From: Chloromonas sp. AAM2
Taxonomy: Eukaryota; Chlorophyta; Chlorophyceae; Chlamydomonadales; Chlamydomonadaceae
Direction of reading: 5' to 3'
NCBI GenBank assembly: GCA_004335635.1
Contig: QAXH01005449.1
Span: 120,942-184,941, forward strand
DNA length: 64,000 nt
Below are positions 1,563-18,547 of this stretch, piece by piece. Position 1 is the stretch's first letter; each line of letters begins with the position of its first letter. The translations under genes were made by a program, and so were the position numbers. The notes below the pieces were generated by a model. It was not told the origin of the DNA. It saw only the letters and a list, made by a program, of their open reading frames with translations, and did no database searches.

Positions 1563-4500
1563 TCACCATTTTCCTGCATTCCAGGCAGGCGCCCACCCTT
1601 GCCCGTTTTGGGCCTGTGGCCTGTGGTGCTGGTGTTGCGCTGACGGGCCTTGCGCCTGTTGCTGGTGGCTTGGTGGTATGCCTTGTTGGTGGTGGTAGTG
1701 GACAGGATGTGTGTGCAGCGGTTGATGTGGGTCGTGCACATAGCCACTGCCATCTGCTGCGGGCCACTGCTGTGGGTGCGGATGTTGTTGGTATTGCTGT
1801 GGGTGCGGATGCTGCTGGTATTGCTGTTGTTGCTGTTGTTGCTGTTGTTGCTGCTGCCGACGTTGCTGTTGGTGTTGTTGTTGCTGCTGCTGCCATGGCT
1901 GCCATTGCTGCTGCTGGTGTTGGTGCTGCTGCCGCTGGTCTCCAAATTCTTGCTCCTGCCGCTGCTGCTGCCACTGCTGGTGTTGTTGCTGTTTCTGCTG
2001 CGGCTGCCACTGCTGATCCCGCTGCTGCGGTGCAGCAGTACTGGCCCAGCCACCCGCCTGGACCCCAGGCCTGAGACGTTGTTGCATCAGGCGACCACCC
2101 TGCCCAATACCACCCCCTCGCCCCCCGCGTGCTGCCTGGCGCACCGCAGGTGCCACACGGGTACCACCATGGCTGGCTGTGCCATTCGCTCGCCCCCGAC
2201 CTTGCTTGGGCACTGCAGGCCGGCCGCCTGCCACGGTCCTGGCCCAAGCACCCTTCCGCTTGACCCCCCTCCCTCGGCCAGCAGCACCGGCCCCATCCTG
2301 TCCAAACCTGTCATGATGCTGGTCCTGATGCTCCATCTCTGTCATCTCCATTTCCTCGTCATCATCATCATCATCATCATCAACATCATCCTCACCCTGT
2401 GCTTTGCCTTGGTCTTGACTGGGCTGCGTGTCGTCCTGTTCGCAGGCCTCACAGAACCAGTCGCGCACGGGGATGTGCCTCAGGCCCACGCACTTGAGGT
2501 GGAATGCCGCGTCACACCCGTCACACATGAGCAGCTCGCCACCCTTGCCACACAAGCCACCTGCGTCAGCAGCCACACTTGCAGACTGTCTGACACTCCT
2601 GGGTGTCAGCACGGCACGGCGTGGCTTCTCCTATGTAAGTTCGCCTGGTGCACAGACAAGCCTCAACACATGAACAAGGTCTGCAGTGCCCTGCTGGACT
2701 GCCATTTCAGTGCATGTGCTTCCGCCTATGGTACACAAAGTCTCTGGTTGAAGTCATGTGACTCTGGCAGTCATGTCAAGACTACCATGTCTCGGCTGAG
2801 GAGCTTTGCAGGGACATGTAAACAAAGCTTGACCGGGATGAACAGTGTGCAGCGGGCGTTGGATCTGATGCAGCGGTCATACACCAGTGCCTCTGGGTGC
2901 AAGGGTCGCCTCACATGCATCGTCTTCCTCGTCCTCTGCCCCTGGGGTGTTGCCCTGGGCTTGGGAGTCGCTGGCAAGGTCGATGCCGCGCTCATGCGGC
3001 AACATGCCCTCCTCCTCCCCCTCATCCAACTCCTCCTCCCCCTCCTCCTCCTCCTCCCCTTCTTCAGCCTCCTCAGCTTCATCGTCATCGTCATCATCAT
3101 CACGTGAAGTGCCTGTGTGGACAGGGGCAGCACAGCCACACGCTGTGGTGGTAGTAAGTGGCTGGCAGGGTGAACAGGAGAGGAACTTCTGCTTAGTCTG
3201 CTATTGCACATGACTGGCAGCTGCACAGTCAGCTTCATGGTTCTCAACACAGCCGCCTTGCCTGCAGCCGTCCCTGCCCCATGGATGCACACCTTGCCAC
3301 CTTGCCGCCCCCATCCCATGTGTGTGTGTATGTGTGTGTGTGTGTGTCTTACACCTATGTTACCCCACAAGTGGTACAGACGATGAGTTGAACATGACGC
3401 ATGTGAGCAAGAAGAGAATCTCGCTTGACCAGTGCGCACCTTGCCTCCTTGCCGCCCCGTGCCCGCCCCTGGCCCCGCGGCGTCGCCCCACCAGCCGCGC
3501 TATGTCCACCTTGCTGGCGCTCTCGGGGCACTGGGTCAGCGCCCAGCCGTAGTACATGGCCATGCCAGGGTCAGTGCTGCTGTGGGCACACAACCACACA
3601 ACGCACACACACCTGCCTATCGGTACTGCCGATGACTACAGTCACCAAGGCAGATGTGATGTGCAGGATGCAGGAAGGCACGTGACAGAGCAGTACTTGT
3701 ATGATTAGCGCATCCGTGATGGACTGTAGGAGCCGAACTCAGGGGTTGGGGCACGTGCTGTGGCAGTTGAATGGCCTTCAATACTCTCCATGACAGGCAC
3801 ACACCAAAGCTTCTGTGGGAGGTCCTACTGGATGGTGCTGCCACAACATCTGTGTGACGGTACGTTGTATGCTGGCATCCCAACTAGCTACACCGTATGC
3901 GTGGCACCTCACCAGCTCGAGGGTGCTTCATCGCACAGGAATCCCTCCAGCTCCTGGTCCCAGTCCTCCCCCTCCTCGTCCCCACTGTCACTGCCCGACA
4001 GCGCGGCCTCCTCGTCAATCAGGCGACAGCTGCAACAGGAAACAATGATACTAGGATTGGTTCAGAACACAACTTCCGGCCAGGCCTTTTGAGGATCAGC
4101 AGATGCTGTTGTGCAGCTTGCTTGTATGTGATGCACGGGCTTGTGGTGTAGTCGTCTGTCCCGCATGTTTGCACATGGCACTCCACCGGTTTCTCCTGCC
4201 TGTGTGGAGATAGCACAACTCACCGATTGTTCCTTTGGACAGGACGCTTCGCTGCACGCACAGCCTGTGCTGCTTTCTGGGGCTTGGGTTCGGCCACCTC
4301 CGCCTTGCGCCCCGGAGCCGCTTGCCGTGCCGCTTTGCTGCCCGGTGCCTGCCTACCGCACTTGCCTTGGCCCTGCCCGGGACCCCGCACCAGCCTTGAC
4401 AACGGGCGCAGCTTGTCCGGCCCCGGGCTGGGCAGAATCATCTGTGTGAGTGTGGGGGATGGCCCTGGAGCGGCAAAGCCGTTCCCTTTCCCTTCAGTTG

Positions 4501-16500: not shown

Positions 16501-18547
16501 GCAACAGGCACAACCACATCACAGGGTGCAGGAAGCACAAGGCACACAGCTCATGCAGGGTAGCTTGCTCAACCAAACTGCGAGGAACTCCAGCATTTGA
16601 GTGCTCAGTTGCAGCTATCCTGCAAGCCGACTTGCACTATAACACCTGGGTTTGGACGCTTTCCGTAACTGTTGTGGAGGGCAACGGCAACAATGTGAAA
16701 AGGCTGCAGAGCACTGTGGTAAGGTGCTTCTTCTAGACACGTGGCCTGCATGCACAGTGCGTGTCCTGCTCACCTGGTATATGCTGCATGCATGGGCTGG
16801 TTCCTGTTGGGCAACCTGAGGAGCTGGTTGGGTTGAACAGGCTGGGTGAAGTGGCCCGCTGGGCGCCCAGGCCATGGCGCTCCCGCGCCACTGTGAGATG
16901 AACCTTCTAGCATGGCTCGTGCTGCATTGGGCTCACTGATGTGCAACACGCCTGACAAAAAGTGTTTGTTGCTTGCGCCACCGGCCTTTTCTCCGTTGGA
17001 TGATGGCGCTGCGTGGCTGGCACCAGCTTGCACCTGTATGGCGTGTGGCTTGTGAGCGAGTTCTGGTGAGGTAAGGTCCACAAGCATAGTTGAAAGATTG
17101 TGCCTTGCAACTGGCAGTCCCTCCTGCTGCTGCTGGTGCTTTGGCTCATTGAGAGGAGGACATGGTGCCTGCAACCCATATAGTACGGGCTGATCTTTTT
17201 GAGACGGTGAATCGCCCAGGCCAAGAGTGAAGGGCTCGTCTAGGCTCGCTGGTGTGTTCTGAATCATGGGGCAGGCGTCCGGCTGGCTGAAGTCTGCCGA
17301 TGCGTCATTGGCGGCAGCAGTATTTGCTGGGCCAGTGGTTGGAGGCAGTAAGCTGGCTGACACTGGTCGTGCACTGACTGCAGTCGCCGGAACAGCAACG
17401 CTACAGCCACTGCCGCTTGCAGTGTCAGCTGGAGCACCAGAAATGGCCGAACCGCTGATAGGCTGCAGCGGCCGTTTGGCTCCTCGCTGTGACCATGGGT
17501 GCGCTGCCGTTGTGCCTTCTTCATACTGCTGGTGGTGCTGCTGCTGCTGTTGCTGTTGCTGGTCTTGCTGCTGTTGGTGTTGGTGTTGGTGTTGCTGGTG
17601 CTGTTGCTGCTGTGGCTGGTCCTGGTCTTGCTGCTGCTGCTGCTGCTGCTGTTGTTGGTGTTGGTGTTGTCGTTGGTGTTGATGTCCTTGCTGATAATGC
17701 TGCTGTCCTTGCTGGTGCTGTTGCTGGTGCTGTTGCAGGTGCTGTTGTTCATGTTTTTGTTTCTGGAACACCTGCTGCTCTTGCCGCCAATGCTGTTGCA
17801 CTTGTTGATCTTTCAAAGGTGGAGGCTCTGAAAATGTCTTGCTGCTTGCTTGGTAGCCTGCTGGCATGGATGCAGGAGCACACACGTGGTGCTGTGAGCC
17901 GTTCCAAGTCCTTGCATGCTGAGCCCTGTCTTGTGAGGAACCTACTATGCCGGATATGAATTGGGGTTGTGGTGCCCCATGCCATAGCTGTACTGCGGGC
18001 TGATCGTGCATAGTGGGCCAACCAGACCTGGGCATGCTGGGAACGTGTGCACTAGCAGCACAGGCACCTTGTTTTGCTGGATTACCGCCCTCTGCATCGG
18101 GCCATGCAGCTGCGCTGCCACTCTGAAGTGCAGTTTTGCTCTGCTGCCAGCTTGGCACAGGGTTGTGTACGCCAGGTGTGGGCTGGATGGCTGCCAAGGT
18201 TTGCGTAGCATGCCCAGCAGCTGAGGCCTTAGCGCTTAGGTGCTGTTGCACAAGAGCGTCCACATCAAAGTCCTGCGGGCATCAACATGCACCAGCTTGA
18301 GCTCCTGGCCTCTTCTGTGCCATTCCGCTCCTAGACGCCTCTCTGAGCCTGCTAAATGTAGGTCTCAGCAAGAAGTCTGGAACAAGGGAGCAAGTGTCTG
18401 GTGGTTTACGAAGTATGGGCATCATTGGTCTCATACTCGTGCTTTAAGTACACGAACTGTGCACATCATGCTGCAGGCGCAGTCTCATCTTCCTGCGCAC
18501 ACTGGCAACCTTTTACTCACCTCCAGGTCGTCCTCGTCGTAATCCAT
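1563..18547 (-). CDS. FANCM: FANCM-type DNA helicase with long disordered tail and C-terminal PHD finger
   Basis: FANCM is a superfamily 2 translocase that remodels stalled forks and limits crossovers. I read 22 exons with matching phases, giving 3,464 residues: 18547-18521, 18272-16774, 16494-16348, 16006-15910, 15630-15500, 15202-15055, 14467-14375, 14058-13963, 13781-13644, 13355-13266, 12987-12864, 12595-12487, 11871-11715, 11385-11270, 10948-10750, 10445-10301, 10110-5526, 5264-4224, 4029-3913, 3579-3440, 3112-2915, 2560-1563. Residues 1-509 are acidic then Gln-rich. The helicase core, about 510-1057, shows WIYPCNKEVREYQF, PTGLGKT, APTKPLV, DECH (usually DEAH), LSATPG, TCIGEEGLDIPE and QRMGRTARHRDGR, with the helical insert between the RecA lobes. 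A disordered stretch of about 1,900 residues follows, then RLIDEEAALSGSDSGDEEG and TDPGMAMYYGWAL, which resemble the FANCM MM2 region. An acidic tract, a PHD finger near residue 3133 and poly-Gln end the protein. No ERCC4 nuclease domain is seen. The helicase assignment is firm. Joining the 3' exons rests on phase and is less certain. Confidence 0.88.
1800..2040 (-). repeat. CAG/CAA poly-Gln coding tract, C-terminal
   Basis: An interrupted (CAG/CAA)n run on the minus strand encodes a Gln/His/Trp-rich C-terminus after the PHD finger. The plus strand reads as poly-Leu, poly-Val or poly-Ala in its three frames, which are shadows. Confidence 0.85.
3318..3350. repeat. (TG)n microsatellite
   Basis: An interrupted TG dinucleotide run inside the predicted FANCM intron between the exons at 3440 and 3112. 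Confidence 0.85.
14596..14670. repeat. 15-bp minisatellite, five units
   Basis: Five head-to-tail copies of CCTGTCATCCATGCT. The first four are identical and the last is altered at its end. It lies in the FANCM intron between the exons at 15055 and 14467. There are no spacers, so it is not a CRISPR array. Confidence 0.95.
17520..17760 (-). repeat. CAG/CAA poly-Gln coding tract, N-terminal
   Basis: A second long (CAG/CAA)n stretch, this one in FANCM exon 2 upstream of the helicase core. It encodes Gln/His-rich sequence. The plus-strand open frames here, rich in Cys, Trp, Leu or Val, are its antisense. Confidence 0.85.

Follow-up and report, generated by a model that had tools for sequence, protein, structure and literature searches.

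A FANCM-type helicase gene of Chloromonas with a C-terminal PHD finger resembling readers of unmethylated H3K4

Introduction

Does a green algal FANCM helicase carry a chromatin-reading module at its C-terminus, and what would such a module recognize? FANCM is reported to act at stalled forks and to limit meiotic crossovers; helped in its recruitment by MHF1-MHF2, it also serves as an anchor for the Fanconi core (PMC10085685). In a 64,000-nucleotide stretch of the Chloromonas sp. AAM2 genome (the window), a sequence-only reading had proposed a FANCM-type helicase fused to a PHD finger, the fusion being deduced from splice phase. Here we examine that gene, its relatives and the probable role of its finger.

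Results

Gene model and FANCM identity

The gene lies on the minus strand, 18547-1563. Our model, in which exons were set by hand with consistent phases, has 22 exons and 3,487 predicted residues (Table 1). Its 21 introns are all of the GT-AG type and range from 165 to 615 nt (median 304). The sequence-only reading had correctly placed the ATG at 18547, the exons at 4029-3913, 3579-3440 and 2560-1563, and the stop at 1563; its protein length of about 3,460 residues becomes 3,487 in the hand-set model. The sole Pfam match in exon 2, to Presenilin, fell below cut-off and was rejected.

Table 1. Features of the predicted FANCM-PHD gene (window coordinates)
Feature	Position	Strand	Description
Exon 1	18521..18547	-	Start codon, MDYDEDDLE; phase 0 into exon 2
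Exon 2	16774..18272	-	N-terminal region, Gln-rich, low-complexity
Exons 3-15	10750..16494	-	FANCM helicase/translocase core, model residues about 509-1098; FANCM 9el5_A E 6.9e-111
Exon 16	10301..10445	-	Basic linker; no Pfam domain
Exon 17	5526..10110	-	Low-complexity, 1,528 residues; no Pfam domain
Exon 18	4224..5210	-	Low-complexity; no Pfam domain
Exon 19	3913..4029	-	Conserved acidic FANCM motif (RCRLIDEEAALSGSDSGDEE..)
Exon 20	3440..3579	-	Exon 19 motif continued (MAMYY..LTQ..DIARLVGRRRG)
Exon 21	2915..3112	-	Acidic linker; gives T of first PHD Cys codon
Exon 22	1563..2560	-	PHD finger followed by a basic and Gln-rich tail; ends in the stop codon
C4HC3 PHD finger	2442..2560	-	Residues 3156-3195 of the model; 2915 and 2560-2559 together form the first Cys codon

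The window protein has an SF2 helicase core of the FANCM/Hef type. Its best solved match is 9el5_A, 'Fanconi anemia group M protein' (E 6.9e-111), and the comparison with Hef (1wp9) gave E 3e-65, so that the strong FANCM identity proposed earlier is borne out. The top NCBIfam match was the Hef nuclease model, at 337 bits, under its cut-off of 610 bits. The best 50 matches listed in the structure search were helicases, with nothing on the PHD among them. The gene product is predicted to be a branched-DNA translocase of the FANCM family. In the assembly, our searches detected a single FANCM gene of this kind together with weaker helicase and PHD relatives, whose counts are lower bounds.

In the model pieces scanned, the helicase-linker joint included, Pfam gave no match to the MHF-binding domain (PF16783); the scan over that joint returned only the tail of Helicase_C. 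The listed land-plant FANCMs are likewise without an annotated PF16783, and P0006, a metagenome FANCM, has a sub-cut-off match. The scanned pieces also had no Pfam match to the ERCC4-like C-terminal end (PF02732); the listed land-plant FANCMs lack this end too, and it therefore does not define the family. Searches for FANCD2 and CENP-X/MHF2 found no match in the Chloromonas genome and none in the control genomes either, while those for CENP-S/MHF1 returned eight matches, all below cut-off, the best two overlapping H3 frames of the genome.

The conserved acidic motif

The window protein carries the C-terminal acidic motif of FANCM (FIDDEAELS..YRRSL): exons 19 and 20 match the FIDDEAELS..DMMAIYRRSL motif common to animal and plant FANCM. 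Against the FANCM of Chlamydomonas eustigma, none of 300 shuffles scored as well as exon 19, and two of 300 as well as exon 20, which is collinear with residues 2637-2667; the matches of exons 19, 20 and 22 follow one another there in collinear order. Support for exon 20 comes from this one relative, with no collinear match in the five other proteins compared. The homology of exon 21 in its own right is not significant (46/300 shuffles as good).

These exons had been labelled 'MM2-like', which is wrong; they form another conserved FANCM motif. In the vertebrate FANCM P0180, the pattern that we take to represent MM2 lies at residue 1228 and the acidic motif at 1520, about 290 residues apart. 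On account of this distance we rejected the MM2 label. Among five vertebrate proteins searched, the presumed MM2 pattern was found in one and the acidic motif in all five.

The PHD finger and its splice joint

The finger scores 35-38 bits against a Pfam cut-off of 24 and has the C4HC3 zinc ligands with the tryptophan of the fold. Exon 21 ends in ..GCA T/GTGAGG and exon 22 starts with /GT GGC TTG TGT (slashes mark the splice sites), so that the junction codon is TGT, the first zinc cysteine; unspliced, this position reads Gly. A zinc-cysteine codon split at the exon 21-22 joint is more than chance. In an alignment of 15 FANCM PHDs, that of the window included, the eight zinc ligands and the tryptophan are invariant.

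The window finger scores 78.3 bits with a profile built from 31 other FANCM PHDs; among 18 other PHDs found in the same genome the highest score is 60.8 bits, which 26 of the 31 FANCM PHDs exceed. In comparisons with the FANCM PHDs, the median score is 145 for the window finger and 129 for L030, the best other PHD of this genome; the C. eustigma finger scores 125 against the window finger, under the 129 that L030 reaches in that comparison. In the predicted structure of a Trebouxia FANCM, the core is folded, most of residues 540-923 are of low confidence and the PHD is modelled confidently at 931-970. The fusion, first deduced from phase, thus stands, now also with the split cysteine codon, the fit to the PHD profile and the green algal orthologues described below.

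Distribution among FANCM proteins

As judged from predicted proteins, a C-terminal PHD on FANCM is common to many green algae. Of the 54 FANCMs that we placed together as green or of unknown affinity, 32 have it (not an unbiased rate), from C. eustigma, Chlorella, Coccomyxa, Trebouxia, Nannochloris, Ostreobium, Bryopsis and metagenomes. The fourteen models that reach the C-terminal motif yet have no finger, Picochlorum included, form a single clade. The search for PHD-bearing FANCM models in related green algae, which the sequence-only reading had suggested, revealed several with the same order of parts, namely helicase, long linker, acidic motif and C-terminal PHD (C. eustigma P0121, Chlorella P0004 and P0122, Ostreobium P0003); the finger is therefore not a peculiarity of the Chloromonas gene but a widespread chlorophyte feature. 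These proteins are known here from database names and domain annotation, and the window protein differs from them in being longer and in having a Gln-rich tail beyond the PHD. Our searches found no description of a function for their finger, and none of the fusion itself in the literature searched, mostly titles and the starts of abstracts, with subscription papers and bioRxiv outside the scope.

By profile, 55 of the 250 retrieved proteins have a PHD, a count that supersedes the 53 obtained with a word pattern. Oomycete FANCMs, for example P0217, likewise unite a FANCM helicase with a PHD; in P0217, however, a PHD-like zf-HC5HC2H domain (extended PHD) comes after the PHD. Unlike the C-terminal algal PHD, the oomycete PHD is found around residues 1170-1600 in proteins of 1,800-2,300 residues, and it precedes the acidic motif in those 12 FANCMs, among 23, in which the motif was detected. 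It is probably a separate acquisition. The remaining 173 retrieved proteins, mostly from animals but also from fungi, land plants, a red alga and others, are all without a PHD by profile. Within the FANCM/Hef/Mph1 family, animal and land-plant FANCMs share the helicase core and the FIDDEAELS..YRRSL motif with the window protein, which adds a C-terminal PHD absent from the animal and land-plant FANCMs examined.

What the finger may read

An aromatic residue at the cage position of a PHD finger goes with methyl-lysine reading. The window finger has Ala, not Trp, at this position (CDGCDAAFH), and it begins with DDAC; 28 of 32 FANCM fingers have an acidic residue at position -2 relative to Cys1. 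Such a residue before Cys1 is described as a feature of H3K4me0 readers (PMC3471955). Acidic before Cys1 and without an aromatic cage, the window finger is of the H3K4me0 type under a rule for which PMC3471955 gives support. The best single-PHD solved relatives of the FANCM-PHD family are those of AIRE, BHC80/PHF21A and CHD4, reported as H3K4me0 readers (PMC3471955, PMC6979384), and a canonical H3 tail is encoded in the Chloromonas genome. The window finger thus resembles readers of unmethylated H3K4, and H3 binding is predicted. Recruitment of FANCM by histone marks, as suggested previously, is plausible; given this sequence type, the cue would be the lack of a mark. The fingers of AIRE (PHD1), BHC80/PHF21A and CHD4 share the sequence type and acidic N-terminal residues of the window finger, whereas they do not sit on a fork or D-loop translocase. 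AIRE, BHC80 and CHD4 are transcription regulators or remodelers.

We favor, with a probability of about 0.6, a FANCM translocase with a very long low-complexity linker, an acidic motif and a C-terminal PHD that binds H3 unmethylated at K4 and so affects where FANCM is placed. By analogy with CHD4, AIRE and BHC80, the finger would bind the N-terminal tail of H3 while lysine 4 is unmethylated. Once bound, it would hold or admit FANCM where nucleosomes belong to freshly replicated or non-promoter chromatin, placing the enzyme near stalled forks and recombination intermediates, and H3K4 methylation would weaken this hold. We infer both the K4me0 preference and its effect on the place of work of FANCM. 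If the conserved finger does read histones, it would link chromatin state directly to fork or D-loop remodelling; with this PHD design on an algal FANCM, repair in algae may be directly steered by chromatin marks.

A less probable reading accepts the fusion and lets the finger bind another protein, such as a FANCM partner, or simply stabilize the C-terminus. PHDs of SUMO/ubiquitin ligases exemplify binding to a non-histone protein. The C. eustigma finger, from the nearest relative, has an insertion and no acidic residue before Cys1, and H3 N-terminal peptides were reportedly bound by only 31 of 123 PHD proteins (PMC6979384); however, the preservation of the acidic residue in 28 of 32 fingers and the nearest single-PHD solved relatives, all H3K4me0 readers, argue for histone binding.

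The direct recognition of H3 by FANCM might also be ancient. A C-terminal PHD is likewise present in metagenome lineages clustering with land plants, oomycetes and animals, and not with named chlorophytes; it would therefore predate green algae. It is tentatively conceivable, though rather doubtful, that this PHD then disappeared from land plants, animals and fungi, with oomycetes gaining another PHD module; the alternative to such losses would be several gains. If the PHD is old, the sensor of H3K4 methylation at forks and D-loops in PHD-bearing lineages would be FANCM itself, a role taken in human cells by SETD1A, CHD4 and FANCD2; there, H3K4 methylation is reported to control fork protection via FANCD2 and by holding CHD4 off (PMC6039718). 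If shared by C. reinhardtii, such an old function might help to explain why cisplatin and mitomycin C sensitivity is seen in fancm (Cre03.g208833) mutants of this alga, whereas their Arabidopsis counterparts are reportedly not crosslinker-sensitive (PMC9110296, PMC8604939, PMC12541362).

Reading of methylated H3K4, which would bring FANCM to promoters or crossover hotspots, is improbable. On arrays, 18 of the 31 H3-binding PHD proteins reportedly preferred H3K4me3 (PMC6979384), and in yeast recombination the PHD protein Spp1 recognizes H3K4me2/3 (PMC6299014), but the cage position without an aromatic residue, the acidic residues before Cys1 and the AIRE/BHC80/CHD4-type sequence all speak against it.

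Least probable are two genes, a FANCM stopping soon after exon 20 and a small PHD protein starting in the gap or inside the acidic exon: read-through past the exon 20 donor does meet TAA at 3362 and then, at 3353, TGTAA, which we take to be a green algal polyadenylation motif, and an in-frame ATG occurs within the acidic exon at 3005, but the open frame of that exon extends upstream no further than 3203 and has no ATG ahead of the one at 3005, and the 327-nt gap between exons 20 and 21 is of normal intron length for this gene. A separate start upstream of the acidic exon had been named earlier as the sign of a second gene; when the gap was scanned for a first exon that begins with ATG and ends in a phase-1 donor, none emerged under the few donor patterns used. 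Transcription of the FANCM-PHD gene as one mRNA in Chloromonas would also agree with its orthologues in other algae, which are single predicted proteins, and with the window PHD being nearest to FANCM PHDs.

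Gene model and identity of the helicase

The minus-strand FANCM gene is described by a single model of 22 exons (E1-E22; 10,464 nt, 3,487 residues, no internal stops), all 21 introns of which are GT-AG and 165-615 nt long (median 304). Exons were placed by hand from anchors and then joined by script, and the coordinates that the sequence-only reading had proposed for the disputed exons match this model exactly. Boundaries beyond the helicase, motif exons and PHD were set purely by phase and consensus; the placement of E9-E10, inside the helicase, is the least secure. A 15-nt unit, ACAGGAGCATGGATG, is repeated head to tail in intron 6, as read directly from the sequence.

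Model residues about 509-1095 match FANCM (9el5_A, E 6.9e-111) and archaeal Hef (E 3e-65), with Pfam DEAD, ResIII and Helicase_C each above cut-off. One FANCM-type helicase gene was found in the assembly (74.4 Mb, 2,324 contigs), other helicase matches being weak (E 1.6e-6 or worse). The window groups with Chlamydomonas eustigma and Sanguina in trees of 57 helicase cores (SH-aLRT 97) and of 59 rows (SH-aLRT 98), which makes a chlamydomonadalean green alga the probable source.

Exons 19-20, previously labelled MM2-like, instead carry the FLDEEAELS-type acidic motif. In the vertebrate protein P0180 this motif lies at residue 1520, separate from a pattern at 1228 that we take to be MM2, and the MM2 assignment was rejected. 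In land-plant FANCM, DMMAIYRRSL follows this motif.

Features of the FANCM locus and other loci
Feature	Sequence	Coordinates	Strand	Remark
FANCM-PHD gene model	window	18547-1563	-	E1-E22
15-nt repeat	window	about 14590-14680	-	intron 6
TAA stop	window	3362	-	read-through of exon 20
TGTAA	window	3353	-	possible alternative polyadenylation
Open frame	window	21350-22753	+	Pfam RelA/SpoT homology and EF-hand
Open frame	window	25048-25923	+	Pfam RXYLT1_C match, glycosyltransferase-like
Other PHD locus (L020, L030)	G000 contig C1387	12217-12378		44% over 52 residues

One gene or two

Exon 22 encodes a PHD finger that clears the Pfam threshold with 38 bits, or with 35 bits when the spliced C-terminal piece is scanned. 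The acidic exon 21 ends in GCA T|GTGAGG and exon 22 starts with GT GGC TTG TGT; splicing creates TGT, the codon of the first zinc cysteine, whereas without splicing the frame gives Gly at this position. Because the junction completes this codon, exon 21 is tied to exon 22.

For the join to exon 20, sequence comparison settles most of the one-gene question. C. eustigma FANCM (2,814 aa) aligns over exons 19-22 in one stretch of 230 columns at 35% identity (E 2e-23, uncorrected for composition). Once low-complexity sequence is masked and the correction applied, the alignment splits into two collinear pieces: exons 19-20 match at E 0.005, the PHD at E 1e-10. Shuffles scored as well in 0/300 cases for E19, 2/300 for E20 and 0/300 for E22; for the acidic E21 46/300 did, and its best match lies off the collinear place. 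Five further proteins (P0020, P0019, Chlorella P0004, P0005 and metagenome P0006) were tested exon by exon: E22 matches the finger in all five (0/300 shuffles as good) and E19 its motif in four, and no collinear match to E20 was found in any of them, leaving C. eustigma as the one relative that supports the E20 boundary.

The E20-E21 gap has a normal intron length for this gene, a scan using a short list of donor patterns found no separate usable first exon inside it, and the E21 frame is closed upstream at 3203 with no ATG ahead of 3005. One feature counts against a single gene: reading through exon 20 meets a stop and, nine bases on, TGTAA, which could mark an alternative short transcript whose polyadenylation there would yield a PHD-less FANCM.

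Distribution and origin of the finger

The best 120 rows of each of three protein searches gave 250 different proteins, which we scanned with a profile of 31 FANCM fingers other than the window's. A PHD was found in 55: among the matches listed, 32/54 proteins grouped as green or unknown-kin and 23/23 grouped as oomycete-like, counts that are not unbiased rates since the groups were drawn up using protein names, annotated domains and previous word-pattern matches and were thus partly picked for the finger. None was detected in the remaining 173 listed matches. Most of these are animal proteins; fungi, land plants and a red alga are also represented, as are some unnamed proteins and at least one short oomycete model (Achlya, P0243).

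The check proposed earlier, a search for PHD-bearing FANCM models in related green algae, turned up C. eustigma, Chlorella sorokiniana, Chlorella vulgaris, Coccomyxa, Trebouxia (two), Nannochloris, Ostreobium and Bryopsis. Wherever the acidic motif was found among the 54, the last finger is downstream of it. Eight of the 22 finger-less models end early, before any acidic motif, and are uninformative (two are the same Sanguina gene); truncated models include Sanguina, Myrmecia and Elliptochloris. The other 14, including Picochlorum P0027, carry the motif, mostly end near DEYDLDDSF and form one clade (SH-aLRT 100). On the 59-row tree, which holds 27 of the 32 PHD proteins (five near copies omitted), the C-terminal finger requires one change among green and unknown-kin rows, and three over all 59 with oomycetes scored as lacking it.

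Metagenome proteins P0006, P0201, P0203, P0206 and P0209 also have a C-terminal finger. Another metagenome eukaryote protein, P0031, has two, which flank the acidic motif. Metagenome bearers including P0031 fall beside land plants, oomycetes and animals, apart from named chlorophytes, on a branch that is not strongly supported in these unrooted trees (SH-aLRT 89 with 57 cores, 92 with 59 rows); a C-terminal finger that predates the green algae is one possible reading.

In the 23 oomycete-like FANCMs (between P0207 and P0248) the PHD sits between helicase and C-terminus, at about residues 1170-1600 of 1,800-2,300, and is annotated together with extended-PHD or PHD-like zinc-finger domains. It precedes the acidic motif in the 12 where that motif was detected, with weak scores. 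Because of this order and the accompanying extended-PHD domains, it is probably a separate acquisition, which would make it another fusion of FANCM to a reader, independent of the green-algal one.

Against the FANCM-PHD profile the window's finger reaches 78.3 bits and L030, the best of 18 other PHDs found in the genome, 60.8; in pairwise scoring, 26/31 FANCM fingers outrank L030. Two results point the opposite way: the C. eustigma finger scores 125 against the window's, just under L030 (129), and the median against FANCM fingers is 129 for L030 and 145 for the window. The L030 locus, the nearest other PHD found in the genome, is possibly a source or cousin of the finger.

The FANCM and PHD pair is already visible in public domain annotation, some records even being named FANCM; our literature searches found no paper describing the fusion.

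What the finger may read

A profile search of solved structures placed the multi-PHD proteins NSD2, CHD4 and NSD3 on top; the best single-PHD rows were AIRE PHD1, BHC80/PHF21A and CHD4. An excerpt of PMC3471955 describes the AIRE PHD1, BHC80 and CHD4 PHDs as H3K4me0 readers and, for AIRE, negatively charged residues in place of the methyl-binding aromatic cage. An acidic residue stands at -2 from the first Cys in 28/32 FANCM fingers, including the window's but not that of C. eustigma. In the predicted structure of Trebouxia P0033 (976 aa, 23-sequence alignment, mean pLDDT 64) the helicase is well folded, residues 540-923 are nearly all below pLDDT 50 and the finger at 931-970 has block means of 84-92; as modelled, the finger is a tethered module.

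An H3 with the canonical tail is encoded in the genome. We propose that the finger may retain FANCM where nucleosomes carry unmethylated H3K4. SETD1A-made H3K4 methylation protects stalled forks in human cells via FANCD2 and CHD4 restriction (PMC6039718, in part); if FANCM has a finger like that of CHD4, it would respond directly to the same H3K4 signal. In meiosis, passages of PMC6299014 report that crossovers correlate with H3K4me3 in two plants and that Spp1, a PHD protein of yeast, recognises H3K4me2/3 during break formation. An anti-crossover factor reading H3K4me0 would act in the complementary chromatin.

Neighbouring open frames

The open frame with RelA/SpoT and EF-hand homology probably belongs to a gene for a calcium-regulated RSH (ppGpp) enzyme.
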